From NCBI RefSeq assembly GCF_910592395.1, contig NC_088323.1, positions 15,051,501 to 15,115,500 on the forward strand: a DNA stretch of 64,000 nt, given 5' to 3'. Positions 23,001 through 63,504 of the stretch are shown here, one piece after another. Under the pieces are notes generated by a model. That model did not search any database, was not told the origin of the DNA, and worked only from the letters and a program-made list of their open reading frames with translations. The stretch comes from Lineus longissimus (Eukaryota; Nemertea; Pilidiophora; Heteronemertea; Lineidae). Positions within the stretch are counted from its first letter, which is position 1. Each line of letters starts with the position of its first letter. The translations under genes were made by a program, and so were the position numbers.

Positions 23001-26000
23001 AGAGTGTCAAAAAGCTGCCAGCACATTCAGACACTTCCATTGCATCAGGTAACTATAGAGTGTCAAAAAGCTGCCAGCACATTTAGACACTTCCATTGCA
23101 TCAGGTAACTAAAGTAATGTTCACCGTGCTAAGAATTTTTTCATATTACTCCTCTCAGATTTCTGCCTGAAATTCATGAGAACCCTTCCCATCCGGTCGT
23201 GCCGACTATTAGGGAAATGGCAGTTGGTTGATGCTTTTGCTGCGAGTGACGTGCAAGGCATGTCATGTGCATGTCACCACATGTCACCACATGTCACCAC
23301 ATGTCACCACATGTCACCACATGTCACCACATGTCACCAAAGCTTTGTGTACCTGGTGCATGCGCAGCGGAAGAGGAGGTGTTTTTTTGTGGAGACTAGT
23401 TTCGGACAGTCGGTGTTCAGTTTGTGTTCTTGGGACGTTTTCATTCGGGAGTTTTATTTGAGGCAAAGTTATATTTATAAAGTCTTGACACGAATTGCTA
23501 AACGGGACATGAGCCTGGCCAGCCAGCATTCATTCAGGGTTTCATGTTTTATCACGAGGAGACTCGAGACGTGTATTCAGCTGCATGGGTTGCATCATCC
23601 GTACATGTTGGAGGTAACGCCCGTGGTTATGGAGACAAAGCAGTAGTGGTTTCCCACAAGACGGAGAGTCGTGTCGTGAGTTTATCGTGAGAGAACTGAG
23701 CATCTTTTCAACCTTGGCGTGTTAGTGACGTACATAGTACGTCATACATTTCTTAAATTGGAACACATCAGGTCTTGGTGGCTGCCTTTCCATTCTTCCT
23801 CACATCAATTCTTTTCTCCCCTTGCAGTGAGCTGAGTTCAAAACTCAAGGACACTTTGGAAATGATCGAAGAGGCGCTGGATGTGGCTCTGTCTAAAACA
23901 TGTAACAACTTTGATACGCGTCATTACGAGAAGGTCCAGACTGCTTATAGGCTGCTGGGAAAAACACAGGTAAGTTGTCTTGGAAGATTTTGCCATGTCT
24001 GGTTAGGGTCCTGTATCTGACCTGGTGGGTAATGGGTTCGATACATTGAGTGATATGAATAAAGACCAGCAAATGCTTTTATCTAAAACTCCATGTACAT
24101 TTACACTAGGCCTTTCTGTACAAAATTGTAGTAAAAGCATTTACTTGTCTTTATTCATATCACCCCTTGTCTTTCTTCGTGTATCTCCGCAAATGTGTCA
24201 AGTTTGATTCAAAAATACCATCATTTCCATTAGAAAAATCCGCCCCTATCCAGCCCCTCGAAAGAATTCAACGAAGGGCTCCAATGAAAAAAGTTGTTTT
24301 GACTTGATTTGCTCATCTAATACCTGGAAAATATGTTTTTGCTCGAAGTTAGATTAACCAACCTTTGAAGAATTTGGCCCAGTAATTTTCGTACTGTAGC
24401 CCAATAGGATTTATAAACATTTACTTCTTAAAAAAACCTTTAAGTATACAGCAGTATCAGATGAAGTGTGTCACCACCCCTAAAAACTTGTTGGTAATCG
24501 AGGTTTTTACTTGTTTTGGCGCCAAATCTTTGAAAGTTCATCAAAATCGTCTTTATTGTTTGTTGCAGACTGCCATGGACCAGCTGAATATGCACTTTGC
24601 TAGCGCCATTCATAACACCGCGTTCACAATCGTCATCGGTTATGTTGAACTCTGCTCAGGGACGGAAGACAGCAACTTTCAGAAAAGACAATATCTGGAT
24701 TTATGCGAGGTGAGGAGTAATTCTTTAAAGGGTAACTCGTGTCAAATTTCACCACATAATGTTTTAGCTGTTTTTGACTAATGACTACGTCACTTTCTCA
24801 TAAATCGGTAAGGTTTTCAAATCGAAATGCACATTTTCTAGAAATTGATGGTTTAATCCCGCCCGGACGGCTCACTTCGATGCCGTTTTCGTTGATGACG
24901 TCACAACATGAACATTTTCGCGGTCGCGGTGGTTTACATTCAGCGATTTTATAATAAATCTAATCAAAAATGGACAATTTTAGCTTTACATTTGTGATCA
25001 ATAATTAAAAACGGACGTATTTCCGCAAAGTTGTAAATCACATCATAGTATCACTTTAAGTAGCCTAAAAGCCTAGTGGTAAACGGCTTATACCATTTGT
25101 TTGTACTTCAGTAGTCAACTTCTTGAAAATGATACGCACTACTGCTGTTCCAGCACCTTAGCAAAATTACCATTTTTGCAGATTAAATGATATAATATCA
25201 AAAATATGTAAGGCGAGCCAATATATTTTTGATGATACAATAGAACCTGTCTATTAAGGACACCCTCGAGGCTGACAAATGCTGTCCTTGTTAGAGAGGT
25301 GTCCTTATTAGAGAGGTCAAGTTGAATGGAAGCAACCAATTCGGGACAAAACTAGTGTCCTTAATAGAGAGGGTGTCCTTAATAGAGGGGTGTCCACTAA
25401 AGGAGGTTCTACTGTATCTAATAATATTGAGTGTCTAAACCAGTTTCATTTGTATATGCAGCACATCAGTCCGGACTTGTTTACACCATGTCTGATTGAC
25501 TTGTGCAAGGCATTATGGGAAGTCATGAAGAGTTATTATCAGACGATGTTATGGCATGAAAAACATGACTTGGAGCCGACGGATCAAGGTTCGTTGATAT
25601 GCATTTATTGGACGGGTATTTGTTGATTTTCGAAAAAATAGATATCCTGTTACGTATATCTGGAGAATAACACCTCCTACAAGTGAAGAGTGAATGCTGA
25701 AGGTGATGAAAAAGAATCATATAGAAAAAAATAACTTGTTGATTGAAAAATTGACAGATCTCTTTGTTAGTTTTTCCTTTTGAAAAAATGTCTGCTAAAA
25801 CGCTTAACCCGTCTTGGTGGAGGAATACTCCCTGGAGAATAAAACCTCCGAGTAGAGACTGAACGCTGGAGAAGAAAAATCATGTTGAAAAAAGCCATTT
25901 TATCAATCAAAACTGATCGTTTTATAGAATGAAATTATCTTTCCACAGAGTCTGGCAGCAGCAATGTTGAAGCTGCATTCAATCGGCGTTACATCAAGCA

Positions 26001-34265: not shown

Positions 34266-36272
34266 CCAAGTGGCCCATGCCTCTACTCAAATGGCTGCAT
34301 CCCCCCAATGGCTGCATCTCCCCAATGGCTGCATCTCCCAAGTGGCCCATGCCTCCACTCAAATTACTGCATCCCCCCAATGGCTGCATCTCCCAAGTGG
34401 CCCATGCCTCCACTCAAATGACTGCATCTCCCCAATGGCTGCATCTCCCAAGTGGCCCATGCCTCCACTCAAATGGCTGCATCCCCCCAATGACTGCATC
34501 TCCCAAGTGGCCCATGCCTCCACTCAAATGGCTGCATCTCCCAAGTGGCCTATGCCTCCACTCAAATGGCTGCATCCCCCCAATGGCTGCATCTCCCAAG
34601 TGGCCCATGCCTCCACTCAAATGGCTGAATCTCCCCAATGGCTGCATCTCCCAAGTGGCCCATGCCTCCACTCAAATGGCTGCATCTCCCCAATGGCTGC
34701 ATCTCCCAAGTGGCCTATGCCTACACTCAAATGGCTGCATCCCCCCAATGGCTACATCTCCCAAGTGGCCCATGCCTCCACTCAAATGGCTGCACCCCCC
34801 CCCCCCCAATGGCTGCATCTCCCAAGTGGCCTATGCCTCCACTCAAATGGCTGCATCTCCCAAGTGGCCCATGCCTCCACTCAAATGACTGCATCTCCCC
34901 AATGGCTGCATCTCCCAAGTGGCCTATGCCTCCACTCAAATGGCTGCATCCCCCCCCCAATGGCTGCATCTCCCAAGTGGCCTATGCCTCCACTCAAATG
35001 GCTGCATCTCCCAAGTGGCCCATGCCTCCACTCAAATGACTGCATCCCCCCAATGGCTGCATCTCCCAAGTGGCCCATGCCTCTACTCAAATGGCTGCAT
35101 CCCCCCAATGGCTGCATCTCCCCAATGGCTGCATCTCCCAAGTGGCCCATGCCTCCACTCAAATGACTGCATCCCCCCAATGGCTGCATCTCCCAAGTGG
35201 CCCATGCCTCCACTCAAATGGCTGCATCCCCCCAATGGCTACATCTCCCAAGTGGCCTATGCCTCCACTCAAATGGCTGCATCTCCCAAGTGGCCTATGC
35301 CTCCACTCAAATGGCTACATCTCCCAAGTGGCCTATGCCTCCACTCAAATGGCTGAATCTCCCAAATGGCTGCATCTCCCAAGTGGCCCATGCCTCCACT
35401 CAAATGGCTACATCTCCCAAGTGGCCTATGCCTCCACTCAAATGGCTGAATCTCCCAAATGGCTGCATCTCCCAAGTGGCCCATGCCTCCACTCAAATGG
35501 CTGCATCCCCCCCCCAAATGGCTGCATCTCCCAAGTGGCCCATGCCTCCACTCAAATGACTGCATCCCCCCAATAGCTGCATCTCCCAAGTGGCCCATGC
35601 CTACACTCAAATGGCTGCATCCCCCCAATGGCTGCATCTCCCAAGTGGCCCATACCTCCACTCAAATGACTGCATCCCCCAATGGCTGCATCTCCCAAGT
35701 GGCCCATGCCTCCACTCAAATGGCTGAATCTCCTAAATGACTGCATCTCCCAAGTGGCCCATGCCTCCACCCCAATGGCTGCATCCCCCCAATGGCTGCA
35801 TCTCCCAAGTGGCCCATGCCTCCACTCAAATGGCTGAATCTCCTAAATGGCTGCATCTCCCAAGTGGCCCATGCCTCCTCCCCAATGGCTGAATCTCCTA
35901 AATGGCTGCATCTCCCAAGTGGCCCATGCCTCCACTCAAATGGCTGCATCTCCCAAGTGGCCCATGCCTCCTCCCCAATGGCTGAATCTCCTAAATGGCT
36001 GCATCTCCCAAGTGGCCCATGCCTCCACTCAAATGGCTGCATCTCCCAAGTGGCCCATGCCTCCTCCCCAATGGCTGAATCTCCTAAATGGCTGCATCTC
36101 CCAAGTGGCCCATGCCTCCTCCCCAATGGCTGAATCTCCCAAATGGCTGCATCTCCCAAGTGGCCCATGCCTCCACCCCAATGGCTGAATCTCCCAAATG
36201 GCTGCATCTCCCAAGTGGCCCATGCCTCCTCCCCAATGGCTGAATCTCCCAAATGGCTGCATCTCCCAAGGT
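34266..36272 (+). repeat. 2-kb compound minisatellite (38-bp and 17-bp units)
   Basis: The 38-bp unit AAGTGGCCCATGCCTCCACT plus CAAATGGCTGCATCTCCC is interspersed with a 17-bp unit CAATGGCTGCATCTCCC. The right third switches to a CTCCTCCCCAATGGCTGAATC variant with its own higher-order period. Reading frames of 100-300 codons on both strands are artefacts of the repeat. Confidence 0.97.
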
Positions 36273-36805: not shown

Positions 36806-39800
36806 TTACTGTCCTGGTTTTAAAGGCAGCGATAGAATTTCTAATACTGTTGCGTCATCCGGATCCAAATCCAGGCGACATGGTGGTTCGCCGAGGTTTG
36901 CATTCACATTTCCTGGTGGCTCTTGGTTCAATTCCTCCTTGTAAAGTCCACCAACAAAGGCCTTCATGTGTGCTGCCACCTTGTGAGATTTAGCTGCATT
37001 AATGTTAACCCCTTGTAGCAGGTTGACCTTGGGCATCCAGAATATTGGGATGGATCCACGTGAGAGATAGTACTCCAGCTGAGAGTACAGTATGTAGGCC
37101 ATCTCCACCAGGGGGCGCTCATGGTCAAGGAAGTCTTCCACGTTGTGCATAAAGACAGTTTTCAGAAGATAACTTGTGAGGAATTTGTCGACAAAATGTA
37201 ACATGCCGTCATCTTTCACGACAACTTGACAAACGACCGGATCCCTGAGACATTTTGCCAAGATGTAGGCATTCTTTACCCTGGCTGGTAAGTCCTTGAT
37301 GTGCGCGACCTCGAGCTGAGAAAATGTGACACGGAAGAGTCTCTCACGTTCAGCTTCTTTGAAAGTCTTTCCGAATGAGCTCCCTTGGTGTGGAGGTCTT
37401 ACAACCAACTGGTAGCCCTGTTTCTTGAGGTCGTAATATCCCATCATCCAGGTTTTCTCAATGGCTTCATCCGGCCAGTCATTTACTTGAAGCACGGGTA
37501 CAACGTCTATCGACACCACCAGACTGCGTTCGTCCTCCTTCCATCTCAATTGGATGACCGTGCTTGCACTGCCACCACCAGCAACAGCTGAAGGGCTTGA
37601 AACGATCATGTCATCACTTGAATCAATGAAAGACCAAATAAGAGAATGAACCGACTTACTGCTTTCAAAAGTAATCCATCCGTCACACCTTCTGTAACCA
37701 TGGCAAACATCTGTAATGTCACTGATGGGAATATCATCTATGCGCTTGACTGTGTAGTCAAATTCATCAGGGAATCCCACCTTGGTTAATTCGGCTGAAC
37801 CTCCAGTGAGTGTCACAATCCATGAGAGTTTAGCAAAGATCGCCCTAATTTTGGTATCAATGGTTTCGTTCAGCTCATTCAGTTTATCCTGATTTAGGCT
37901 CTGGACCGAACCCAAACCTGGGAATTTGATCAAACTGGAAGTGGAAATTCTTTTCCTCTCTTCTACTTCATGCGGTGAAAGGGCCATCCTGAAAATGTCC
38001 CAATTAATGTCTTCACTAAAAGAAAGATTGTGGTGATCCCTCAAATCCTCTGCATGTTGTTTTAATTCAACAATGAGGAGATACTTGTAAATATCAATAG
38101 ATCCACTTTGAGATAAACATTGTGCAAGTTCGACATTGCTGAGGAAAGACAATGTTGCACCCAATGAGCGAAGCATTCGGACACATTCAAAATGACTATG
38201 TGAGATAGCTGTGGCTAAAGGAGACTGTCCGTTTTGACCTACATAGTCTAAACCTGGTGTTTTGTTCATTTTCTCTAGAAAAATTATAACCTCTTTCTGT
38301 CCATATCTCGCTGCCAGCAGTAACCATCTTTCAATGGTTTTCTTAAGGTCGGCTTCATAAGTGATATTTTTCAAAAAGTATTCAATGACATTAATCTGTC
38401 CATGTATCACACAGTTGTACCGAGAAGAAAATCCATCATTATCCTTACTCGCGATGTCTGCGCCATGTTCAATTAGAATCTGGACAATTTCTGTTTGACC
38501 TACTGTTGCCGCTTGGTTTAAAGGAGATTTCCCCTTGTTATCTTTACTCTCTATATCAGCTCTCTGTTGGTGCAATGTCTCCATCGACTTTTCACAATCT
38601 ATAGTTGTGTGGAGTGGGCTGTGGCTGCTCAGAACACTTGCCTCCGGCATTTCACCTCTTTCTAAAAGAAGTTTCACAACACTCTCATGTCCATTATCTG
38701 ATGCAATCCAAAGGGGAGAACGCCCATTATCTGTTTTACTCTCTATCAGTGCTCCTCTGTCTAGGAGGAGTTTCACAACACTCTCACGTCCATTCTGTGA
38801 TGCAATCCAAAGGGGAGAACGCCCATCATCTGATTTACTCTCTATTAGTGCTCCACTGTCTAGGAGGAGTTTCACAACACTCTCATGTCCATTAAATGAT
38901 GTAGTCTGAAGGGGAGAACGCCCATCATCTGATTTACTCTCTATCAGTGCTCCTCTATCTAGGAGCAGTTTCACTACACTCTCCTGTCCATGATGCGATG
39001 CAACCACAAGGGGAGAACGCCCATCACCTGATTTACTCTCTATCAGTGCTCTTCTATCTAGGAGCAGTTTCACTACACTCTCATGTCCATTCTGTGATGC
39101 AATCCAAAGGGGAGATTCCCCTTTATCTGATTTACTCTCTATCAGTGCTCCTCTGTCTAGGAGGAGTCTCACAACACTCTCATGTCCATTATATGATGCA
39201 GTCCAAAGGGGAGATTCCCCTTTATCTGATTTACTCTCTGTCAGTGCTCCTCTGTCTAGGAGGAGTCTCACAACCCTCTCATGTCCATTCTGTGATGCAG
39301 CCCAAAGGGGAGAACGCCCATCGTCTGATTTACTCTCTATCAGTGCAACTGTGTCTAGGATGATTCCCACAACCCTCTCATGTCCATTATGTGATGCAGC
39401 CCAAAGGGGAGAACGCACAACATCTAATGTACTCCTTATCAGTGCAACTGTGTCTAGGAGGAGTCTCACAGCCCTCTCATGTCCATTTTGTGATGCAATC
39501 AAAAGGGGATAATGCCGACCATCTGATTTACTCTCTGTCAGTCCACAACATTTTAAGAGTTTTACGGAAATGTTATTTCCTTCCCCTGAATCATTATTAA
39601 GGTACAGGTATAGAAACACGACCAAGACGATCGCAGCCAAGACCACGAACCCGACCCCGACAAAGACCACGACCACGACAAAGACCACGACCACGTCCAT
39701 GACCCCGAACCCGAACACGACCAAGACCGCGACCATGACCATGACCACGACCACGACCACGTCCTCGACCCCGAACACGACCAAGAACAAGCCAACGAAC

Positions 39801-40081
39801 CCGAACATGACCAAGACCAGGACCTCGACAAAGACCACGACCACGTCCATGACCCCGAACCCGAACACGACCAAGACCGCGACCATGACCATGACCACGA
39901 CCACGACCACGTCCTCGACCCCGAACACGACCAAGAACAAGCCAACGAACCCGAACATGACCAAGACCACGACCTCGACAAAGACCACGACCACGTCCAT
40001 GACCCCGAACCCAAACACGACCAAGACCGCGACCGCAACCGCGGCCACGACCCCGACCGCGACTAAGCCAGAAGCATCCAT
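36806..40081 (-). CDS. Hydrophobic N-terminus, ankyrin repeats and cGAS/Mab-21-like nucleotidyltransferase (cGLR)
   Basis: A single uninterrupted frame of 1091 codons from the first in-frame ATG (40081, context GCAATGG). The frame stays open for eight more codons, with an in-frame TGA further upstream. Order: Val-rich hydrophobic region (about 4-161) built on 50-residue repeats and ending in VVLAAIVLVVFLYLYL, a plausible membrane helix; about 14 ankyrin repeats (182-640); linker; Mab-21/cGAS nucleotidyltransferase (about 700-1040). The active site looks complete: GGS (760-762), PDEFD with E773 and D775, and VVSIDVVPV with D859. The helical lobe has RVKNAYILAKCLRD. No cGAS-type zinc thumb is obvious. 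By family knowledge such enzymes sense nucleic acids or other ligands and make cyclic dinucleotides; ankyrin repeats bind proteins. Product and ligand cannot be read from sequence. It sits antisense within the VPS50 locus. Confidence 0.85.
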   Translation of the reverse strand: MDASGLVAVGVVAAVAVAVLVVFGFGVMDVVVVFVEVVVLVMFGFVGLFLVVFGVEDVVVVVVMVMVAVLVVFGFGVMDVVVVFVEVLVLVMFGFVGLFLVVFGVEDVVVVVVMVMVAVLVVFGFGVMDVVVVFVVVVVFVGVGFVVLAAIVLVVFLYLYLNNDSGEGNNISVKLLKCCGLTESKSDGRHYPLLIASQNGHERAVRLLLDTVALIRSTLDVVRSPLWAASHNGHERVVGIILDTVALIESKSDDGRSPLWAASQNGHERVVRLLLDRGALTESKSDKGESPLWTASYNGHESVVRLLLDRGALIESKSDKGESPLWIASQNGHESVVKLLLDRRALIESKSGDGRSPLVVASHHGQESVVKLLLDRGALIESKSDDGRSPLQTTSFNGHESVVKLLLDSGALIESKSDDGRSPLWIASQNGRESVVKLLLDRGALIESKTDNGRSPLWIASDNGHESVVKLLLERGEMPEASVLSSHSPLHTTIDCEKSMETLHQQRADIESKDNKGKSPLNQAATVGQTEIVQILIEHGADIASKDNDGFSSRYNCVIHGQINVIEYFLKNITYEADLKKTIERWLLLAARYGQKEVIIFLEKMNKTPGLDYVGQNGQSPLATAISHSHFECVRMLRSLGATLSFLSNVELAQCLSQSGSIDIYKYLLIVELKQHAEDLRDHHNLSFSEDINWDIFRMALSPHEVEERKRISTSSLIKFPGLGSVQSLNQDKLNELNETIDTKIRAIFAKLSWIVTLTGGSAELTKVGFPDEFDYTVKRIDDIPISDITDVCHGYRRCDGWITFESSKSVHSLIWSFIDSSDDMIVSSPSAVAGGGSASTVIQLRWKEDERSLVVSIDVVPVLQVNDWPDEAIEKTWMMGYYDLKKQGYQLVVRPPHQGSSFGKTFKEAERERLFRVTFSQLEVAHIKDLPARVKNAYILAKCLRDPVVCQVVVKDDGMLHFVDKFLTSYLLKTVFMHNVEDFLDHERPLVEMAYILYSQLEYYLSRGSIPIFWMPKVNLLQGVNINAAKSHKVAAHMKAFVGGLYKEELNQEPPGNVNANLGEPPCRLDLDPDDATVLEILSLPLKPGQ
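38640..39550 (-). repeat. 99-bp DNA repeats coding for near-identical ankyrin units
   Basis: Nine consecutive 33-residue units share SPLWIASQNGHESVVKLLLD with ALIESKSDDGR. Period is exactly 99 bp and variation is low, unlike the diverged ankyrin repeats further downstream in the protein. Confidence 0.9.
39630..40060 (-). repeat. 150-bp minisatellite coding for the hydrophobic N-terminus
   Basis: The landmark CCAAGACCGCGACC occurs at 39721, 39871 and 40021, a 150-bp period. Nested inside are GACCAC-type hexamers. All three minus-strand frames are largely open, as is one plus-strand frame, because of base skew. Confidence 0.9.
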
Positions 40082-42300
40082 TGCATCAGTCACTTTTTTC
40101 TCCACATCTATGACGACATCTCATTCGATGTCTGTAGCCCTCTTATCAAACAGGAATTAATTATCAGTGTCAGATAAGCCTTCTTTGGTTTGCGAGCTGT
40201 GTAATTCGGTGCCGTGTAAATGAAATATACATATATCCTTCTGTGGTTAAAGTGGGCTTTACCAGGTCTTCCTTCACAATCTTGAACTTGAGGCCAGCTA
40301 AACTCTGTAAATCAAATAATTACAAAACCTAACACATTTGTTTATTTATTTTTTTCAGGTATAGATTAGAGATTTAATCCATGCTTGCTTTTTTAAAAGA
40401 TCAAACCGTCTTTTTCATCATTTTTTCGGTTGCTCGTTCAACAACATTCATTGCAGGTCACTGCTACAAATATATATATCTCGATTGCAAAAACCTCTTC
40501 ATCAAATCGTATCATGGCCCAAGCCTTAGGAGATCATCAAATTTAGATAGGAAAAGGCATTGGTTAAAAAAATTAAAAAGAAGAAACTTTTTCATGCAGC
40601 AGCAGGCTGTTGTGCAGTGCTATACATATGTCTTCTTCTGCATTCTGATTGTTTTAGATGCACACCAAACAGACATTGGCAACAGATTCGGCTGTCCAAG
40701 GGAGGTCTCCTTCCGAGCCCCACAGCTTTGTGATCAGGGTGGTGTCCTTTGGTCAGTATTTTGCTCTATTCAGCTGCCCTTTGTATGTACTGTGTCGACG
40801 TAATTAAGCTGGTTGAGGGGTCCCTGTGCTAAAGCCTATTTTAAGCCCAGGTTTGACAGACCCGGCTCAACCTAATTGCGTCGACACAGTATATGTGTGT
40901 TGAAAAGAGTTTGCAAAAATGCTAGAACTAGTTACAAGCGTCATTACAAAGAATGAGGGTTGTGGATTTTAGGGTTCGCATTATGGGGTTTAAGCAAGAA
41001 CATAGCACTTGACTCTTACCTTTGTGTTCTTTAATGCATCTAGGATTCGTTTTTCTTAAGTTTATGCTGGCATCTATGTCAATTCGTGGGGGTAAATCTT
41101 GTTGACAATCATTTGCAGCCTCTATCAAGGTCAGATATGTGTTCCTTTGACTTCGATTGACTCGCGTATTCTGCTTTTATTGATGAGTTATAACTGTTTG
41201 AAGAATATAAAACGTGGTGGTTAGCATGATGGTTTGTTTAAGGATAGGTATTTCTGAGGTCGAGGTTTGTTCTTCTTCTGTTTCATAAGTAAACAATTTT
41301 TCGGAAGACCGGGTATATTTTGCAAGCCTCTCGCTGAACAAGCATGATTTTTGCCATGTTTGGAGAGCCACTTGCCGAACAGCACTGAAAATCAACCCAG
41401 TTTGGCAAGCCCCGCTTTAAATATCAATGAGTTCGGCTCTCCATTTAGGGCAAAAAAGGACTTTAGGACTTTCGAACTTTCGGGGTCTTCCTACGTCTAA
41501 ACATTTTGCAGATTTACGAGATGAGTTTGTAAATAAAATTCAAAAATATTGTGGCAGAGTTCGTATCACTGGATTGAGGTTAGTCCTTATGAATAAGGAG
41601 TACTTGTCAATCCCACAGCTGTCCACCAAAAATGTAGCGGTAAAAGGGCTTATAATATTTGTCACCGTATAAACTTCGCAACTCTGAACTCGAACCCAAA
41701 GACTAAACCAACTAAGATATTTACATTATTTATTATCCACCTCCCTCTAACCTCATATCTACAACCGACACTAAAATATTACAAAAATAAGGCGCACAAT
41801 AAAATATCAACAAGAGATCATATAAAAGAATCTTACCATGCTGTAAGGTCAAGGGTGAAGTCAATTAGAAATGCTCTGGCGCTTTTCAAGAGAAATATCT
41901 TGTTTAGCTACAGAGGGTAAAGGTTGGTTTTCTGGATCTGCCAGGACTTACTAAAAACATATGAACATCATCATTTATACCTAATTGCACACACCCCTAA
42001 TGGGTAAATAGCCTAGCCCAAATATCAGGCTCTGAGCCAACTAGCACTCAATAATTAAGGAAATAACCAATCAGTACACAGCAGCATCAATACAAGATTA
42101 TCAGACAGGGCCAAGGGCAGGGGCCTAGTAACCAGCTGCTAATCAGGAAGATCATGAAAGGGGTCAAACAGCTTAAAGGATAGAGATTATAAAACAATGG
42201 AAAGGGGCGATTAAGAAGGAAGGTGTTGAAACTTATAATGGTTAACGATCGAAACACAGAAATAATAATTACAGATATAGTAAGCAATTCCTAATATTGT
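40082..42300. other. No recognised gene (one small hairpin element)
   Basis: Reading frames at 40381-40803 (140 codons) and 41427-41672 (81 codons) match no family I know. No VPS50 exon is seen here. Confidence 0.4.
40790..40889. mobile_element. 100-bp hairpin MITE
   Basis: Perfect ends CTGTGTCGACG and CGTCGACACAG, extended by an imperfect AATTA-GGTTGAG arm, flanked by TA on both sides. Confidence 0.65.
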
Positions 42301-42468
42301 CACATTGATAAATTACCTGTATTTATGAAATTCCAAATTAATTGGACCTGTTATAAGACGGATATGATAAAGTCGTAATCCAAGTCGTAGGCAACCACCA
42401 AAACTTGGAATACGACGTCATAATTTCCTCCTTATGCACAGGTCCGATCTGGAACTTTAAAATCCTTG

Positions 42469-42759
42469 TACAGTGGAACCTCCCTTAGCGGACACCTCTC
42501 TATTAACGTCAACCTCTCTATTAAAGACACTAGTTTTGGTCCCAAGTTGGTTGTTACCATTCAATTTAACCTCTCTAATCAGGACACCTCTCTATGGACA
42601 CATTCTGGACTGACAAGATAGTGCTGTCCTTAATAGAGTGGTGTCCTGATTAGAGAGGTCAAATTGAATTGAAACAGCCAATTCGGGACCAAAACTAGTG
42701 TCCTTAATAGAGAGGTTGTCTTTAATTTAGAGGTGTCTGCTAAGGGGGGTTCCTTTGTA
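42469..42759 (+). mobile_element. MITE (copy in unit D)
   Basis: TACAGTGGAACCTCCCTTAG to GGGGGGTTCCTTTGTA; the same insertion is at 55275-55564. Confidence 0.85.
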
Positions 42760-42954
42760 CAGAGACAAGAATCTACACAGTACACATGCCATAGTTGAAA
42801 GGACAGATGGACATCTGATGCCACAACAACTTGACCGAAAAGAGGCTGCGTTCAGACGTTCGCGATGAGGGCATATTGAAATGGCCTTATTATGTAAATG
42901 TTAAAACGTGTCAAATGAAACAGCCAAAATATACAAACCATGCAAATGTCCCAC

Positions 42955-43330
42955 TCATTTAAATTTTCCAATTTCTTCAGATAGGCGAGCGCCAAAACAT
43001 TTACAACAGAGGGGCGAACATTTGATGCTGTTAGACTTGGCGCTAGGGCGGATACCTGAAAGTTTGCAACAGATGGATGGGCGGTGATGCTGCGATGATT
43101 GTCCCAATGCAAAAATGGTGTCCTCTTTGAAAGCCCATTCATTTGAATCTTTCCTATTTACGACAGTAGAGTTGGGCGTATCCCTGAATGTGTATACAGC
43201 CCATTCATTCTTTCCAAACCCATTTATTTTAATTTTTCCCATCTCTTCAGAAATTCGAGCGCCCATAAATGTCCATCAGATGAGCAGACGGGGATGCTGT
43301 GATGCTGGGGTGGATACCTGAATATGAATA
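42955..43330 (+). pseudogene. Two degenerate copies of a VPS50 exon start
   Basis: TCCAATTTCTTCAG/ATAGGCGAGCGCC (42966-42992 region) and CCCATCTCTTCAG/AAATTCGAGCGCC (43240-43265 region) precede the true TCCAATTTCTTCAG/ATATGCTAGCGCC at 43397-43422. Each is followed by decaying exon-like sequence and GGATACCTGAA, then AAACCCATT before the next copy. Confidence 0.7.
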
Positions 43331-43409
43331 CAGTGATAATTGTATCACTGCAAAAACGGTATCCTCTCTATAAAAAACCCATTCATTTGAATCTTTCCAA
43401 TTTCTTCAG

Positions 43410-44622
43410 ATATGCTAGCGCCAAAAAGTGTACAACAGAAGGTAGGGCGTTGATGTTGTTAGACTTCCAGCAGTTTTTGATGAAGCTTGAGAAGTTGACA
43501 GAACTGCGCCCAATCCCAGAACGCGAATATGTTGAAACCTACATCAAGGCCTACTACCTTCCCGAGGACCAGTTAGAGACCTGGGTCAAAGACCACAAGG
43601 TAATTATAGCTTAGTTCAAACGCTTTAATCAATGGAAAAATTCATTCTGAGCGCAACTGCTCTAGAGAAATGACGATTTGTGCAGAATATGAGCCCGTAT
43701 GCTAATTGCATATGTAAAACATGTCACATCATGACGACGCTATTCTTCTGGAGCTTTATGCAACGTCATTTTTCGTGACATTTCTTCAATGACGCGAAAC
43801 CCCTGTTCAAAAAAGGTGTCGTAAAATATCCTATGCTGTTGTATCGGGTCTTTTTCTCGCGCGGCTGTGGCCGGAATGAACTTTTGAATGTATCAAATAG
43901 CTTGGACTTGATGTAACAATCAATTTGAGGAAGGTTTGATAAAATTTCGAGAGCAATTGTGAAAATGAGAGCGATTTTCAAATTTCTGAACATCTTGAAC
44001 TAATCTAAAGTCTTTTCCTATCTCCCTGTTGACTCTTTCTTGTTATAAAACTGAAAGATAGACATATAGATGCAAGTTTCAATCTTGGAATCATGGATGA
44101 CCCATGCTAGACTCTATGGTATTTCTCACAAATATTAGAATAATCCTTATAAAAAAACAAACTTGGAATCATGGATGATCCATAGTAGACTCTTACAACT
44201 CTATTACTCACAAATATAAGAAAAACTATAAAAAAACAAACTTTGAAGATTTGGCCAAGTCACCCAAAAGGAGCTTATGAAAGCGACTATAGGGATATAT
44301 AGTGGAACCTCCCTTAGCGGTGCCCTCTCTATTAAGGACACCATTTCTAGTAATGACACTAGTTTTAGTCAATAAAATTAGTTGTTTCCATTCAATTTCA
44401 CCCCTCTAATCAGGACACCTCTCTATTCAGGACAGCACTTGTCAGTTCCGAGGGGTGTCCTTAATAGAGAGGTTTTACTGTACATGTAAAGTCATTTCCT
44501 CTTTTCTCTGTTTCCAGGAATACACCACAAAGCAGATCATATCGTTCGTCAATTGTCTACCGCATATCAACAAGAGAGCGCGACAACGCATCATCGGGGT
44601 CATTGAGGAAACACGTCGATAA
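43410..44622 (+). CDS. VPS50: VPS50 last two exons (unit D, intact stop)
   Basis: Exon 43410-43599: [37 protein letters not shown] and [20 protein letters not shown]. Exon 44518-44622: [20 protein letters not shown] then [13 protein letters not shown] and TAA. This is the conserved syndetin C-terminal domain end, of normal length. The first base of exon 43410 needs a phase-2 partner. Joining it directly to 31102 (phase 0) gives ATA TGC TAG, a stop, so exons between are missing. Confidence 0.95.
44299..44482 (+). mobile_element. MITE 35 bp before the last VPS50 exon
   Basis: Ends TATAGTGGAACCTCCC and GAGAGGTTTTACTGTA; the same insertion is at 57109-57293, so it predates the duplication. Confidence 0.85.
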
Positions 44623-44804
44623 CACGTTTACATAAACGATATCTTGGCCCTACATGTATTGATATTTCTGAGCTTTCAGACAACGCGCACGTAAATACCT
44701 TGACGGAGAATACAGCATGCAATCAATTTCAAACTGAAGTTGATCGGGGAATTTCAAAATGTTTTCATACCATTCGTGTACATTGGAATCTTCCTCAATA
44801 GCGA

Positions 44805-45020
44805 CCGCCTCTGTTACAAGGACACCTCTCTTATAAGGACACTGATTTTTTGGTCCCAAATTTGAAATCGACAATGAGAGTACTAGCTGGCTTTTGATTT
44901 TGAAATGTTCACATACCATTCGTGTACAGTGGAATCTTCCTTAATAGTAGACACCTCTGTAATCAGGACACCTCTCTTTAAGGGGACAGCATTACTCAGT
45001 CCCAAAGGTGTCCTTAAAGG
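44805..45020 (+). mobile_element. Variant MITE pieces
   Basis: CAGTGGAATCTTCCTTAATA and GTAATCAGGACACCTCTC with CAGTCCCAAAGGTGTCC: a diverged branch of the same family, also at 60920-61150. Confidence 0.6.
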
Positions 45021-45439
45021 AAGAATACGGGCAGGAGCCAGGAAGAACAGATAAAGTTACACAAAATTGCTAGGTGACGCTCTGATCTCACAGTACATCA
45101 AAACTATTTGCGCTTGTATCAGCAATATAGTGATGTTGTTTAATCGAACACAACCTGGACCCTAAATTGGTAAAAAAGTCACACAGAGACGGAAAGTTTT
45201 ATCCCCTATCTCCTGCCTATACTCCCCCTTTAAACTGTGATTATTGAAAAGACAGAAAATTCTATCTTCAAAAATTATATTTGAACATTGTACAGTTAGT
45301 GTCTTAAAGTTTATCTGTAGAAACCATCAGTTTTGAACTGATTTCTTTAATGCATAATATCTGTTGTACTATATTTGCAGCTATCTATGCACATCCTGTA
45401 TCCCCCCCTTCCCCCTGCTCAGGCGATATCATGATTTGG

Positions 45440-45845
45440 CAGGATTGCAGAGAGCTCTATACTGTGTGCATGAGTTTAAGCCAGCCATGAGCTGTCTTTA
45501 CCATACACACCTATGTGTAGGGCCCTTTGTTGGCTTAAATCAGTGTACACAGTTGATAGAGGTCGGCCAGAGTATGGGACTGCCGAGAGCTCCATACTGT
45601 GTGCATGGTTTAAGCCAGCCATGAGTTGTCTGAATGATGTAAAGACCTATGTGTAGGGGCATTTTGTTGGCTTAAACCAGTGCACACAGTCGATAGAAGT
45701 CGGCCAGAGTATGGGACTGCAGAGAGCTCTATGCTGTGTGCATGGGGTTAAGCCAACCATGGGCCGTCTTAATTACCATATAGACCTATGTGTTGGGGCC
45801 TTTTGTTGGCTTAAACTGGTACACGCAGTTGATAGGAAGTGAAAG
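45440..45845 (+). repeat. 136-bp tandem array (3 copies)
   Basis: Units marked by GAGAGCTCTATACTGTGTGC, TTTAAGCCAGCCATGAG and TTTGTTGGCTTAAACCAGTG; the counterpart at 61580-61870 has lost about one unit. Confidence 0.9.
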
Positions 45846-46689
45846 CACTCGAGTTTGTAAATATATGCTATTGTGCATGTGACCCATCAGATTAAAGCAG
45901 GTTGAAGTTTGCCTGGCCTAGTATCGGGCGATCACTGACACTTAATACAGGATATGACATGAAGTCAGGGCTTCACCCTTTAGATACCAGTGTATAAATA
46001 CCCCTTGGCTACACTCGGTATAAACCAGTAAAGCCATTTTTCTGTCCCAAGATACGATACCAGAGAATAGCAATGCTCAAATATGCACAATGTACTATTA
46101 TACCCAAATTCAAATTCAAATTTAAATTCAAATTTGATTAAAAATCAAACATATCACAGAGTGACACGTATGCGGCAAGATAAGGACTGCATATTAGGTA
46201 CAAACACAGGAAGTGAAATAAATTACAAAATATTTAATGGAAACTACTAAGATAGGGTCCCATCTTTCTCAAATTAAACATATTACATGTATTCACAAAG
46301 TTAAGAACATGAATCAAAACATCATTATCGTGACTTCCAAGTATTTTATAAAACATCAACAGATGTACAAGGGTGACCTCCCGTACAGGAAGAACACACA
46401 TTACCACTCATTTATGAAAACGGATTTTTTTTCGTTTATGTGTCTGTAATGTCATGTCTGTATCGCCAGAGGAAAGTGTTAAGACTGAGCAGTCGTTCTG
46501 TATGTACAAATATACCGTGGACCTACATGTATTTTCCTTGTAAGATTGTACATTGTATATTGACCTTGTATCATGTCAAAAAGTAATATATGTCATACAT
46601 TTTAATTATATACTTGTAAATATCAAGAATTACTGGTAAAGAAGTAATAAATATTGTAAAGGAAAAGTAGCTTGTTTCTCAAATCAATG

Positions 46690-47830
46690 GAACTCATGGA
46701 CCTCAGCTGTGAGGTCTAGTTTGAGGTCCAGATTGACTGAGGGATCCCAGGTGTGAGGTTGAGATAATAAAAACATATAAATCTTGATATGAGGTTTTCT
46801 TGGAGTTCATTCAGGTACCTCAGCTGTAAGGGCTAGTTTGACTTGGGTGTCCTAGGAGTAAGATTGAGATAGGAAACACATCGCGGTAGTGATTTTGGAG
46901 TTCACTCGGGTACCTGAGATGTGAGGTCCTGATTGACTGAGGGATCCCAGGTGTGAGGTTGAGATAGTAAAAACATTTAAACCTTGATATGAGGTTTTCT
47001 TGGAGTTCATTCAGGGACCTCAGCTGTGAGGGCTAGTTTGACTTGGGTGTCCTAGGAGTGACATTTAGATAGGAAAACACATCGCAGTAATGATTTTGGA
47101 GTTCACTCGGGTACCTGAGCTGTGAGGATCTGATTGACTGAGGGATCCCAGGTGTGAGGTTGAGATAGTAAAAACATTTAAATCTTGATATGAGATTTTC
47201 TTCGAGTTCCTTCAGGGACCTTAGCTGTGAAGTCTAGTTTGACTCGGGTGTCCTAGGAGTGAGATTGAGATAGGAAACACATCGCAGTAGTGATTTTGGA
47301 GTTCACTCGGATACCTAAGATGTGAGGTCCTGATTGACTGAGGGATCCCAGGTGTGAGGTTGAGATAGTAAAAACATTTAAATCTTGGTATGAGGTTTTC
47401 TTCGAGTTCCTTCAGGGACCTCAGCTGGGAGGCCTAGTTTGACTTGGGTGTCCTAGGAGTGAGATTGAGATAGGAAACACATCGCAGTAGTGATTTTGGA
47501 GTTCACTTGGGTACCTGAGCTGTGAGGGTCAGATTGACTGAGGGATCCCAAGTGTGAGGTTGAGATAGTAAAAACATTTAAATCTTGATATGAGGTTTTC
47601 TTCGAGTTCATTCAGGGACCTCAGCTGTGAGGGCTAGTTTGACTTGGGTGTCCTAGGAGTGAGATTGAGATAGGAAAACACATCGCAGTAGTGATTTTGG
47701 AGTTCACTCGGGGACCGGAGCTGTGAGGTCCTGATTGACTGAGGGATCCCAGGTGTGAGGTTGAGATAGTAAAAAAATATGAATCTTGATATAGGGTTTT
47801 TTTGGAGTTCATTCAGGTACCTGACTTGGG
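46690..47830 (+). repeat. 200-bp satellite (5-6 copies), dimeric
   Basis: Landmark GAGTTC(A/C)TTCAG recurs at 46803, 47003, 47203, 47403 and 47603, exactly 200 bp apart. Each unit is two related halves of about 100 bp: one with CTAGTTTGACTTGGGTGTCC, one with CTGATTGACTGAGGGATCCC, sharing GGAGTTCA, GAGATAG and CAGCTGTGAGG-type blocks. Confidence 0.95.
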
Positions 47831-47965
47831 GATACCGCGAGGGACTGTGTCACTCAATACAGCATTTCTTGACTGACAGTATAGAAGAGACCACCAGCCC
47901 AGATGGGGTTAATATCGCCATAAAAGTTAAATACTCTCCCAAACGATGACAATTCCAACAAAAAA

Positions 47966-48146
47966 AATATTCCCACGGTCTGAACCAAACGGGCTGCAAG
48001 GGTTAATAAACAACCTTGTACCCAGGATCAAAAAATGAAAATTGCTGGTGTAGCCTACCGTTTCAAGAATTTTTTAACTCTTTCCTAGGAACAAGGTTTG
48101 CATTTACCCCTTTCATCCCGTTTGGCTCTGACCGTGGGAATATTTT
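47966..48146. mobile_element. Hairpin MITE inside the satellite
   Basis: Ends AATATTCCCACGGTC and GACCGTGGGAATATT with long imperfect arms (CCAAACGGG / CCCGTTTGG; CAACCTTGT / ACAAGGTT). The second copy at 63318-63496 has a damaged right end. Confidence 0.75.
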
Positions 48147-49813: not shown

Positions 49814-49829
49814 ACGTTACGTCCTGTTA

Positions 49830-50130
49830 ATGGGGCACGTCATCATCACGTACATTCGGGAAAACCTCCCTAACAAGACCCAATTCCACTGTCTGAATTT
49901 TTTTTTATTCGGCACTGTGAATAATATAACCTGCACACCACGCACATTTCTACGTGTGCATTTCCATGATGGAACCTGTTCAGCCTTAGACTTACTAGAT
50001 GTCAGAACAGCTTCCTCGTCAATCTATGCTGATTATTCCGTGTTGTCAGATGATGAACTGGACTACACGGCAGATGATTATCGTGCTCCACTTGCGGATG
50101 GTGGTGGGGAAGATGTCTTTATCTGGATAG
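49830..50130 (+). CDS. Uncharacterised gene, exon 1 only (copy B)
   Basis: ATG at 49830; reads NITCTPRTFLRVHFHDGTCS and SDDELDYTADDYRAPLADG, ending at the TGG ATA G/GTATAT donor. Its exon 2 is absent before copy C starts, so this copy is truncated or could only splice across to the exon at 53603. Confidence 0.45.
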
Positions 50131-50499
50131 GTATATCCTGAAATTTGATAGGTTGAAGTCAGATGTATTATAATTAATTTAGCAGGTCTCCAGCATTTTC
50201 CTGGAATTTGGTATTTTTTGGCAAAGAGACAGAAAAAGTTGAGAAAATTAACACCTTGTAGCCTAACCCCTTAACTCCCCCCCCCCGTAGGCCATGCAAA
50301 TCTTATGACCCCAAACTAGATCAACATGCTTAGCAGGATCTATAATTCTTTCATAAAACACAGCAAACCCGATTCCCAGCTGTCTAAACGAAAATTATAA
50401 AATGTTACTTCAGGTCACCTATGGCTGAAATCCAATGGTTGAAAATAATGTGGCTCGCCTTATAAATACCGGCAAATTTTTGTTTTCTTTGACAATCAA

Positions 50500-50945
50500 T
50501 TCATTTTGGTATGTACGTTGGGGGCGACTAGAGGAAGGTTTCTTTCGAAAACCGGCTCATTTTGATTCTCAATATGGTCACCAGGGCGGCGTGCTTGAAA
50601 TAGGTTTCCGTCAATTTCGAGGAGAACGTTCGTCCGATCAAATTCGTTTTTGGTATGTACGTTGGGGGTGACTAGAGAAGGGTTGCTTTCGAAAACCAAC
50701 TCGTTCTGATTCTCAATATGCTCACCAGGGCAACGTGCTTGAAATCGGTTTCCGTCAATTTCGAGGAGAACGGCTTGGAGGATGGAATCAATTTTTAGTG
50801 GGCGTAGGCCTAATGCAGTTTTGTAAGGGGAAGGTTCCTTTCGAAAATCAGCGCGATTCGAAATTCAATATGGCCGCCACGCTCACATACTCAAAATAGG
50901 TTTCCACAATTTTAATTTCCATATGCAAACTAGCCACTCCACTAA
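50500..50945 (+). repeat. 144-bp tandem repeat (about 3 copies)
   Basis: GGTATGTACGTTGGGGG recurs at 50508 and 50652 (144 bp), with TTTCGAAAACC and GTTTCCGTCAATTTCGAGG in each. Confidence 0.9.
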
Positions 50946-51528
50946 GCCAACTTCATCATTATCTCACCTTCAACCTTAATAGGCTGAGGGGTTATGCTCG
51001 CTTTGCGATGCTATTTTTGGAGTTTCTAAAACCTCGAGCGCTACTCAATAGGCGGCTAACAAGAAACTACACATTTTACTGTTGTTGCCGACGTATGTGT
51101 ACACTGAACTCGAGATGTGCCTGTTGAAATGCCGTCCAGTGCCAGTTGGTGCGTTTTTCGCTGATTTGTGCAAAATTCAACATATCTCAAAAGTTCAATG
51201 GTTGACCTTCGATTTTTTTTTTTTGTGTAGCATAAGTAACTGTCTTTCACGGGAGAATGGTCACTGTACGAATTATACAAGAAGAAATGTATAATATTTG
51301 GGGTTTTCTGTGATTGTCCGGCCCAATTGGCAATATTGCCATTTGGGATGGTGAACAGAGCTAGGAGCAAATGCAACGCTTATGATTTATTTAAAGAAAT
51401 AAAATGCCCGATTGAACATCCTGCAGAATCAGGGGAATCGGGCGTTTCCATTGATATACGACACAAGTGGGTTGTCCTCATGCATTCACTTTGGAAACGA
51501 ATTTTAAAATAGATGTTACGTCCTGTTA

Positions 51529-53763
51529 ATGGGGCACGACATCATCACGTACATTCGGGAAAAGCTCCCTAACAAGACCCAATTCCACTGTCTGAATTTT
51601 TTTTCATTCGGCACTGTGAATAATATAACCTGCACACCACGCACATTTCTATGTGTGCATTTCCATGATGGAACCTGTTCAGCCTTAGACTTACTCGATG
51701 TCAGAACAGCTTCCTCGTCAATCTATGCTGATTATGCCTTGTTGTCAGATGATGAACTGGACTACACGTCAGGTGATTATCGTGCTCCACTTGCGGATGG
51801 TGGTGGGGAAGATGTCTTTATCTGGATAGGTATATCCTGAAATTTGATAGGTTGAAGTCAGATGTATTATAACTAATTTAGCAGGTCTCCAGCATTTTCC
51901 TGGAATTTGGTATTTTTTGGCAAAGAGACAGGAAAAGTTGAGAAAATTAACACCTTGTAGCCTAACCCCTTACCCCCCCCCCCCCCCCGTAGGCCATGCA
52001 AATCTTATGACCCCAAACTTAATCAACATGCTTAGCAGGATCTATAATTCTTTCATAAAACACAGCAAACCCGATTCCCAGCTGTCTGAACGGAAATTAT
52101 AAAATGTTACTTCAGGTCACCTATGGCTGAAATCCAATGGTTGAAAATAATGTGGCTCGCCTTATAAATACCGGCAAATTTTGGTTTTCTTTGACAATCA
52201 ATTCATTTTAGGTATGTACATTGGGGGTGACTAGAGGAAGGTTTCTTTCAAAAACCGGCTCATTTTGATTCTCAATATAGTCACCAGGGCGGCGTGCTTG
52301 AAATCGGTTTCCGTCAATTTTGATGAGAACCGTTTGTCCGATCAAATTCATTTTTGGTATGTACATTGGGGGTGACTAGAGGAAGGTTCCTTTCGAAAAC
52401 CGGCTCGTTCCGATCATCAATATGGCCACTAGGGCGGCGTGCTTGAAATAGGTTTTCGTCAATTTCGAGGAGAACGTTCGTCCAATCAAATTCGTTTTTG
52501 GTATGTACATGTACGTTGGGGGTGACTAGAGGAGGGTTGCTTTCGAAAACCAGCTCGTTCTGATTCTCAATATGCTCACCAGGGCAACGTGCTTGAAATC
52601 GATTTCCGTCAATTTCGAGGAGAACGGCTTGGAGGATGGAATCAATTTTTAGTGGGCGTAGGCCTAATGCAGTTTTGTAAGGGGAAGGTTCCTTTCGAAA
52701 ATCAGCGCGATTCGAAATTCAATATGGCCGCCACGCTCACATCTTCAAATAGGTTTCCACAATTCTAATTTGGCAATACCGGCAAATTTTGGTTTTCTAA
52801 TGAGAAAAGCTTTATAACCACAAAAACTTCATTAAGTATTAAATGACACACAATGTCATCTCTTATACTCTCACCAACTCTGTCTCACTCTTAAGTAATT
52901 CATGTATTATTTGACTGCTTTCATTACTTATTGCATTCTTTCATCCATTTTCACCATTTGCACTGCACATACAAAAATTCAAATGATTCAAAAAGATGTC
53001 CAGCATGCAGTGATCCCGCCCCCACCCCCATAGCAAATTTAAGGGGGGCCACTGCTCGTACCAATATTCTGAAATGACCCCCCTTTCTGGGGGATTGCCA
53101 TCTAAATTTTGACCCCTTTTCTCGGGGACTTTTTAACCCATTTATATCATGTCATCTCCATTATTTATGAGTTTTTATACTGAAAACAAGCTAAAATGAG
53201 TAAAGTGTCACACATTTTCATGAAAAACAACCCTTTTGACGAGTTGCAAGAACTCTTTCTGAAAAGGTACCCCCTTTTCTCATTTTCTTGGGGATTTGAC
53301 ACCCTAGATTTTAACACAAAATGACCCCCGTCCCCTAGACAACTGGAACGCGCACGCGGCCCCCTAAACTATCTGAATGGGGGGGGGCTGTGCTGGTATA
53401 CATTTGAATAACACATTACAATCATCCCCCCCCCCCAATCAAATGGATTGACACCCATTTATCAGTTGGCCCAAAAAAACGTTGTAAACTTCGTCCGGGA
53501 TCTGAGCGACTTATTCAACATGCAAGCTACAAATAACTTAATGTATTGTGGGATAGAGTACGCCTACCTGACCTTAGAAACCCAGTTCTTTTGTTTTTCC
53601 AGTTGTGGGTGTAGGAGATAGAGGGGTTAGCATTTTTGTGAATGACTTCATCATTGGATTGTTTTTTGGGGGCCACCTCGAGACTGTCAAGTGGAAGGAA
53701 GCCTATTTAATTCAATGTGCGATTTACATAGATCACCCTGGTGTAAAATGGCATAAACGATAG
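51529..53763 (+). CDS. Uncharacterised two-exon gene, copy C (intact)
   Basis: Exon 1 51529-51829 (ATG, then NITCTPRTFLCVHFHDGTCS, SDDELDYTSGDYRAPLADG, DVFIWI) and exon 2 53603-53763 (GVGDRGVSIFVNDFIIG, GHLETVKWKEAYLIQ, DHPGVKWHKR, TAG) join in phase 1, giving about 153 residues. Exon 2 differs from copy A by two conservative residues (L/V, D/E). Conservation of frame and splice sites across copies suggests a real gene, but I recognise no family. It is acidic in the middle and basic at the end, with no signal peptide. Confidence 0.5.
52200..52770 (+). repeat. 144-bp tandem repeat (about 4 copies)
   Basis: GGTATGTAC landmark at 52211, 52356 and 52500; same unit as at 50500-50945. Confidence 0.9.
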
Positions 53764-55274
53764 ACATATTGCTCCTGTCTGACTTACCTCTCTAGCTATT
53801 CTGTTTAAACTATCCCAGCCGCAAGAAATTGAAATTTTTTTTGTTCATCTCATGTATCTCTCTAATGAAAGGCATGAATCAAGACTGATGTAGGTTTATG
53901 TCACTCGCATGGAAAGACCTTTCGGGACACTCATCATGTGACCACTGACTGTCCAAGAGATAGGCCTACTTTGAAGTGCCAAGCGCTATATATATCCAGA
54001 ATGGGGTTCTCCAGAAGATATGGATGTTATTGACAAAGAGTGAAGGCTGACGCTCACCTTATCTAGTCTTTCGGTTCATTTCTGAGATAGTTACCAAAAC
54101 ATGGCTTGGTGAAATAGTTCACAAGCCACGTAAGGCCATGCTTGAAAAAATTGAGATGATTATGGTAAAATGAAGCTGACAGCACCCCGGATCTGAATTC
54201 CAAAGCATTTCTTTACCAACACCCAAAATCCTGATGAAACTCTTGTATAAGACATCACTTTTGATGCAAAAACCGTTGAGTTGCACAGAAAACTTGTGTG
54301 CACTCGAAACAGCCCAAGTTGATATAGTGCTTTTGCATCGATACAAAAACTGTCAAGGAGAAGGAGGCCTCCAGGTCTCCAAAAGTTAAATGACGATGAT
54401 TTCTTGTAAATTCTCTATTATCTAGTCATTTAGTTTATTAGTTTATCAGCTGTTATCAACTGCTGGCAAAAATTTATAAGCAGGCAGAACAGAAAATTCT
54501 AAGATTCTGAAAATACCCCAGTTTGACGAACAGAAAATTTTTGCAGCACAGGTATAAAAGTTTCGAAAATCAATGTATGAATGATCATCAATATATGTCA
54601 TAGAAGCAGTCCACATTGTGTGTTTTGATATTGACGTCATTTTCATGTATGTCAAGGTGGTCTATTTTTTCTTAAGTGTTTGTCATATCTTTCTGGAAAA
54701 TGTATGGTGTGGTATTGGTAATGTTGCCCACTAAAGCTGGTTGACATTTGGGTCAGAGTTGTTGGGTCTTCATGACTTCACTACCTCTCTGCTGCCAATG
54801 AACTTCCTCTGTCTCGGCCCTGGGCCAAAGAAACTGTGGGGGAAATATTCAAATAGGAACGACAGTATGACAAGATCAAAGAAATGCTGATGGTACGGGC
54901 AGTAAGTAACGTAGCAGCTGGGTTGTTGTTGCTGCTGGTGATCGCGTCAAGAATCAAACACCGAATTGGCAGAGGCACTGCACCTGTTGTTTTGACAGTC
55001 ATAGAGAGGTTGCACACCATTACGACTCCAACTCTGACTTCAACTGAATTTGAGGCTGACAGTCATTTAGTTAAATCTTCAATTTAACTAAATTGTTGAA
55101 CGCTTTTATATTGATAAATTACCTGTATTTATGAAATTCCAAATTAATTGGACCTGTAATAAGACGGATATGATGAAGTCGTCATCCAAGTCGTAGGCAA
55201 CCACAAAAACTTGGAATACGACGTCATAATTTCCTCCTTATGCACAGGTCCGATCTGGAACTTTAAAATCCTTG

Positions 55275-55564
55275 TACAGTGGAACCTCCCTTAGCGGACA
55301 CCTCTCTATTAAGGACAACCTCTCTATTAAAGACACTAGTTTTGGTCCCAAGTTGGTTGTTACCATTCAATTTGACCTCTCTAATCAGGACACCTCTCTA
55401 AGGACACATTCTGGACTGACAAGATAGTGCTGTCCTTAATAGAGTGGTGTCCTGATTAGAGAGGTCAAATTGAATTGAAACAGCCAAGTCGAAACCAAAA
55501 CTAGTGTCCTTAATAGAGAGGTTGTCTTTAATTTAGAGGTGTCTGCTAAGGGGGGTTCCTTTGT
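55275..55564 (+). mobile_element. MITE (copy in unit E)
   Basis: Ortholog of 42469-42759, with a few indels. Confidence 0.85.
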
Positions 55565-55779
55565 ACAGAGTCAAGAATCTACACAGTACACATGCCATAG
55601 TTGAAAGGACAGATGGACATCTGATGCCACAACAACTTGACCGAAAAGAGGCTGCGTTAAGACGTTCGCGATGAGGGCATATTGAAATGGCCTTATGTAA
55701 ATGTTGAAACGTGTCAAATGAAACAGCCAAAATAAACAAACCATGCAAATGCCCCACTCATTTAAATTTTCCAATTTCT

Positions 55780-56130: not shown

Positions 56131-56205
56131 GATAATTGTATCACTGCAAAAACGGTATCCTCTCTATAAAAAACCCATTCATTTGAATCTTTCCAATTTC
56201 TTCAG

Positions 56206-61560: not shown

Positions 61561-61574
61561 TAGGCGATATCATG

Positions 61575-63496: not shown

Positions 63497-63504
63497 TGGT
63501 GTGA

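Follow-up and report, generated by a model that had tools for sequence, protein, structure and literature searches.

The window analysed here is the whole stretch of 64,000 nt at positions 15,051,501 to 15,115,500 of contig NC_088323.1 (C16:15051501-15115500 in our genome search) of the ribbon worm Lineus longissimus. It holds a gene, here called ANK-cGLR, in which a hydrophobic N-terminus, an ankyrin solenoid and a nucleotidyltransferase (NTase) domain of the type found in cGAS-like receptors (cGLRs), related to the human DNA sensor cGAS, are joined in one uninterrupted frame of 1091 codons. The frame is read from the minus strand, from an ATG at 40081, which is the first in-frame ATG after the upstream stop, to a stop at 36806-36808. 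A first-pass annotation, made from the sequence alone, had given the extent and length of this intronless frame exactly without stating the strand. The gene is one of five copies on chromosome 16, four of which lie 60-74 kb apart. The order of the domains is above chance, for the fetched paralogues repeat it, likewise within a single open frame. The coordinates of all features are collected in Table 1.

The C-terminal domain matches the Pfam model Mab-21_C (30.0 bits, cut-off 24.1), and its profile matches are chains of cGLR1 and cGAS. With the Pfam NTase-core model it falls below reporting, and the L. longissimus protein P0001 passes. The predicted fold of the domain matches cGAS/CD-NTase, and the acids E773, D775 and D859, correctly numbered in the first-pass annotation, do not vary among the 10 proteins aligned. 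The cGAS-like fold and the triad that had been proposed are supported. The accompanying description of the enzyme as intact, with a "GGS" motif, holds for the triad and the fold and fails for the serine: in a gap-free alignment the motif Ser corresponds to Gly761 of the window protein, and "GGS" is not an extra Gly plus an intact GS. This GG has a single origin on the tree (support 100/99), and all seven loci that carry it keep the triad. In the preprint of Li et al. (PMC9980059) the cGLR criterion is h[QT]GS in the Results and is relaxed to G[S/G] in the Methods. The relaxed pattern, [E/D]h[E/D] X50-90 [E/D] with G[S/G], is found in 26 of 53 loci of the genome, the window gene among them. Between chromosome-16 copies, residues 765-838 show more replacement than silent differences per site (pN 0.123, 0.191 and 0.084 vs. 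pS 0.053, 0.084 and 0.055), and residues 938-1050 are strongly conserved in all five (pN at most 0.023). Identity to vertebrate cGAS is ~15%, and the Cys cluster of the vertebrate-type zinc thumb is lacking; the Cys pair seen in Mobula cGAS has no counterpart in the window protein or in the 12 other non-vertebrate rows of the alignment. Vertebrate cGAS is not known to carry an ankyrin array.

Other loci depart from this active-site layout in their own ways. In a second paralogue group (L014-L026), 11 of 13 loci have a spacing outside X50-90 between acids two and three; the related proteins P0006-P0008 carry an insertion of ~75-80 residues there, and L024 is without it. The locus L002 (G000:C14:752051-752338) encodes a conventional-looking cGAS-like NTase with GS and EDD. 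The tree places it beside Mobula cGAS, a grouping of which we are unsure because both are long branches.

The ankyrin part is matched by Pfam (Ank_2, E 5.7e-96). A full-length AlphaFold2 (AF2) model predicts ~15 helix pairs over residues 192-670, one of them atypical of ankyrin, in good agreement with the ~14 repeats annotated before; with a predicted local distance difference test score (pLDDT) of 61.6 the model is too weak to place the ankyrin part relative to the enzyme. The matched repeats number 8, 14, 8, 16 and 3-4 in the five chromosome-16 copies, and their mean identity to the consensus is 0.85 in the window gene (7 repeats) and 0.87-0.91 in three copies (7-15 repeats). Among 49 matched repeats from the five copies (47 distinct; another matching gave 50), variation is concentrated at positions 3, 5, 10 and 13. 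We matched distinct repeats into disjoint nearest pairs, so that shared ancestry is counted once. For chromosome 16, the 42 repeats with ESK or ESN at their end formed 21 pairs, in which 48 replacement changes fell at the four positions vs. 10.5 expected from the silent rate. The ratio of replacement to silent change (omega) was 4.56 there and 0.88 at the rest (p 3.4e-17, a value that is not independent, the positions having been picked on the same data). With the positions fixed beforehand, omega was 2.47 in 225 repeats of 13 other loci (p 1.4e-15, rest 0.68) and 3.64 in 27 repeats of the locus L064 (p 3.3e-5, rest 0.96). Positions 1 and 14 were also high in the 13-locus set, as were 1 and 31 in the L064 set. 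A mutation hot spot is unlikely at position 10, because Thr, Ala, Val, Pro and Leu tolerate any third base and yet it is T in 42 of 42 codons. Positions 2, 3, 5, 13, 14, 26 and 33 are taken as the design positions of designed ankyrin repeat proteins (DARPins); across the three repeat sets this group has omega 2.48, 1.98 and 1.97, with 1.01, 0.60 and 1.11 at the rest (p 0.014 in the third set). By analogy with that design, positions 3, 5, 10 and 13 would lie on the concave face. The excess of replacements at fixed repeat positions supports the earlier suggestion that the ankyrin part is a binding module.

Residues 1-165 are hydrophobic throughout and Val-rich, as had been annotated, with the qualification that this stretch is the reading of a DNA minisatellite with periods of 6, 60 and 150 bp (39637-40063). 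The AF2 model has no confidence here. Hydrophobic but mutually unlike N-termini are present in four of the five chromosome-16 copies, and in the loci L009, L010 and L013 different hydrophobic N-termini follow a related start. Hydrophobicity is retained while sequence is not, which suggests that the N-terminus may serve as a membrane anchor in the chromosome-16 clade, as was proposed before. By the same hydropathy measure, no hydrophobic N-terminus was found in the more distant relatives P0003-P0009.

The surroundings of the gene show how these copies arose. Long pieces of the 5' flank are 97.4-98.4% identical to those of L009, L010 and L013, the flank of L009 being partly covered and one short piece 93.8% identical. 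The 3' flanks are 98.3-99.1% identical over 349, 441 and 319 aligned bases, with long gaps in two of these alignments because the frames there end elsewhere, and the coding ends are 95-96% identical. L012 has no flank in common with the window gene. A poly(A) remnant was looked for in the 505 nt downstream, where the longest A run is 4 and neither AATAAA nor ATTAAA occurs. Since three of the four paralogues compared have near-identical flanking non-coding DNA and no poly(A) run follows the gene, the chromosome-16 copies are, judged by their sequences, a segmental duplication of a gene already intronless in its coding frame. We therefore reject, for these copies, the retrocopy origin or recent mobility suggested by the first-pass annotation. 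In ten pairs compared over the post-ankyrin region, replacement divergence (dN) is 0.028-0.067, silent divergence (dS) 0.048-0.094 and omega 0.51-1.11. Both dN and dS exceed the flank divergence of ~0.02; thus, part of the coding divergence probably stems from gene conversion by copies more distantly related.

In the whole genome (391 Mb, 30 contigs) Mab-21_C gave 66 matches, a lower bound because the cGLR domain of L064 scores under the Pfam cut-offs. A search with that domain yielded 78 matches and, after merging, 74 loci, with an open frame of at least 600 codons in 68 and of at least 1500 in 22. Nine clusters (neighbours less than 150 kb apart), each on one strand, hold 39 of the 74 loci; the other 35 are scattered, and the frames are intronless wherever checked. 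For the clusters elsewhere, we infer tandem copying from the clustering on one strand. Each of the 20 loci fetched at 10 kb, that of the window included, has its NTase within a single frame of 832-2789 codons from stop to stop. Repeat matching found ankyrin repeats in 18 of 18 of these tested, and the other two appear ankyrin-like by eye; at loci not fetched whole, an ankyrin fusion is presumed from frame length. These ~70 related genes resemble a large repertoire of immune sensors of the worm's own making. L064 (G000:C12:1862500-1868300), one of eight same-strand copies on C12, is an ankyrin frame of 1759 codons with a divergent cGLR domain at its end. It had been considered as an ankyrin-only control and was rejected on account of that domain.

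Two of three protein searches (one and three) returned nine proteins each, all from L. longissimus or JGI metagenomes. Search two returned seven, including two ray cGAS (E ~1e-5) and one protein of ENA source, P0013 (E 1.4e-9). The best 7999 and 8000 word-sharing candidates were scored in searches one and two, and relatives elsewhere are possible. Of the 17 proteins found that are not from vertebrates, 16 have ankyrin domains; long proteins were favoured in two of these searches. P0001 shares the C-terminal end of the window protein. The JGI metagenome proteins P0009, P0011, P0012 and P0018 have the same ankyrin-cGLR architecture and are ~32-38% identical to the window domain (the figure of 34% for P0018 is identity to P0011). 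Pfam labels of EPSP_synthase and Response_reg on P0007/P0008 lie within ankyrin repeats and were taken as spurious. The genome also has a STING ligand-binding-domain exon at L063:5055-5228 (G000:C11; 30.1 bits, cut-off 27), a single exon and the sole match.

Fusions of ankyrin repeats to cGLRs have already been described (Li et al., PMC9980059), and the claim of a new architecture made in the first-pass annotation does not stand. In the survey reported there 87% of cGLRs are single-domain; the triggers identified, in the sections cited here, are double-stranded DNA and double-stranded RNA, some enzymes having an unknown trigger. The Lineus family shares with these cGLRs the cGAS fold, the catalytic triad, the ankyrin fusion and the expansion of the gene family. 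Unlike them, as those sections present them, it has near-identical repeats with hypervariable positions, hydrophobic N-termini in some members and GG in one clade. The word "Nemertea" is absent from the main text of PMC9980059, and by term search cGAS, STING and cGLR are absent from the main text of a paper on immunity in Lineus ruber (PMC9835746).

Fungal NLR-like receptors, as set out in the relevant parts of Dyrka et al. (2014; PMC4986451), carry ANK, TPR or WD repeats that are highly internally conserved, with positive selection at positions of the concave binding face. The Lineus genes resemble them in having near-identical tandem repeats in variable number. The window array lies within the fungal-type range of high internal conservation (roughly at least 85% alike over >100 aa), by an identity measure that differs from that paper's, and such conservation is given there for only 0.8% of metazoan repeats. 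The fungal repeats sit on NACHT/NB-ARC proteins, whereas the Lineus repeats sit on a cGAS-type enzyme; Pfam matched no NACHT or NB-ARC core in the window protein. By analogy, the replacement excess at fixed Lineus positions may correspond to the fungal concave-face selection, the concavity here being taken from DARPin design. Among the titles and abstract starts listed in literature searches, in most cases a small fraction of the papers matched, none concerned a nemertean or hypervariable-ankyrin cGLR. The architecture alone is not new; the superfamily is known, and the variant form was not found described in the literature searched. What deserves a specialist's attention is the size of the family, the way its single-frame genes have been copied in clusters, and the repeat positions that diversify.

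Taken together, we read the gene, with a rough probability of 0.58, as an animal cGLR that senses through its ankyrin array and not, or not only, through its NTase. The hydrophobic N-terminus would tether the protein to a membrane, and variable residues, presumably on the concave ankyrin surface, would bind a fast-changing protein ligand, most likely derived from a pathogen. Ligand binding or clustering would switch the C-terminal cGAS-fold enzyme to produce a cyclic nucleotide, which STING would read. The worm keeps ~70 related loci, roughly half of them clustered in tandem, and homogenisation of the repeats everywhere but at the contact positions could let the repertoire diversify. We propose more tentatively, at somewhat short of even odds, that this ribbon worm has an NLR-like, self-diversifying recognition repertoire built on cGAS chemistry, in which the scaffold of ~70 ankyrin-cGLR loci is homogenised and the binding face driven apart, and in which cGLRs sense proteins, some from the membrane, and not only nucleic acids. 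If true, the family, through its diversifying ankyrin surface, would give the cGAS-STING system an arm that senses proteins, and animals and fungi would have arrived at one repeat-based way to diversify recognition although their signalling cores are unrelated. The reading is directly testable: the sites that matter are specified (the variable positions, the triad, and GG as against GS), and a single sequenced species also has paralogues that combine GS with the full triad.

Several observations weigh against sensing through a diversifying array coupled to an active enzyme. GG replaces GS in 7 of 53 loci and may weaken catalysis, and the strict h[QT]GS is found in none of the 53, the window protein having LTGG. 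Tested by itself, position 3 does not reach significance in the chromosome-16 repeats (p 0.16), where positions 1 and 9 are raised too, and the Poisson p values ignore gene conversion among repeats. In the non-cGLR ankyrin genes L065 and L066 the repeats have diverged so far that just 1 and 3 of them fit the repeat pattern, and neither gene provides a matched control. L012, of the same clade, is without a hydrophobic N-terminus. In 4 of the 20 fetched loci (L014, L018, L020 and L022) the first Met comes 187-759 codons into the frame, which may reflect a further exon upstream or a start that has been truncated. Finally, silent sites of the coding region have diverged more than the flanks, so some of the variation may stem from divergent segments brought in by gene conversion.

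The single-origin GG and the fast-changing residues 765-838, which adjoin the active site, could also mean that the enzyme of the chromosome-16 receptors is dead or altered: their ankyrin surface would still bind a ligand, and the NTase, having lost the GS serine, would act as scaffold or decoy and perhaps regulate active paralogues. We consider this unlikely, as the GG loci keep their triad, residues 938-1050 stay conserved and G[S/G] is accepted in the published Methods. The repeat variation could instead have come from recombination and gene conversion of tandem 99-bp units under relaxed constraint, with no selection on ligand binding, and the near-identity of the repeats, their variable number and the raised silent divergence of the coding region all agree with this. 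Relaxed constraint, however, should leave omega at or below 1; values of 2.5-4.6 at the same positions in three sets, with 0.68-0.96 at the rest, make such an origin quite improbable.

More doubtful still is a developmental role outside immunity, in which the gene would encode a Mab21-like protein and the ankyrin array would bind a partner from the host itself. An expansion to ~70 loci and diversifying sites would not be expected of developmental Mab21 genes, although the Mab-21_C homology and the developmental roles of Mab21L1 type mentioned in PMC9980059 point that way. A retrocopy or decaying pseudogene, to which the frame without introns, the N-terminal minisatellite and the omega values of some pairs, close to 1 or higher, might be attributed, is already largely refuted and hardly credible: both flanks are shared, the downstream sequence has neither an A run longer than 4 nor AATAAA or ATTAAA, the frame is open end to end with the C-terminal end of P0001, and the NTase lies in one open frame at every fetched locus.

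Table 1. Features of the window, in window coordinates (a dot marks a strand not assigned).
Feature	Position	Strand	Basis
ANK-cGLR gene	36806..40081	-	open frame; homologues; same frame in paralogues
Hydrophobic Val-rich N-terminus, residues 1-165	39587..40081	-	hydropathy; tandem repeats; low-confidence model
Ankyrin solenoid, ~15 helix pairs, residues 192-670	38072..39508	-	Pfam; AF2 model
Near-identical 99-bp tandem array within the ankyrin domain; hypervariable positions 3, 5, 10, 13	38655..39542	-	
cGAS-like NTase domain, residues 712-1050	36932..37948	-	profile matches, predicted fold
G760-G761, NTase GS-motif position, Ser to Gly in the clade	37799..37804	-	
E773-F774-D775, catalytic acids one and two	37757..37765	-	
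D859, catalytic acid three	37505..37507	-	
Second fast-changing segment, NTase residues 765-838, pN > pS among chromosome-16 copies	37568..37789	-	
Mab-21_C helix-bundle match, residues 964-1030	36992..37192	-	Pfam
5' flank common to three paralogous loci, segmental duplication	40121..45499	.	
Syndetin/VPS50 exon, Vps54_N match, host gene	23757..24017	+	Pfam
Syndetin C-terminal exon, Syndetin_C match	43303..43611	+	Pfam

The gene is nested antisense between the two exons of syndetin (VPS50) in Table 1. The C-terminal one is duplicated within the window (56099-56407, plus strand) and is also carried by three paralogous loci. Blocks that are 91-97% identical recur within the window (182-4376 with 49824-56022, 42304-44610 with 55110-57421, and 44776-48144 with 60909-64000) and are probably pieces of segmental duplication. 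Long minisatellite arrays lie at 34266-36270, 10440-12650 and 21180-21822; a MAAL_N Pfam match on the second of these was taken as spurious. A weak match to the DDE_3 transposase model at 59652-59972 on the plus strand (23.6 bits, under the cut-off of 28.6) is possibly the remnant of a Tc1/mariner element.

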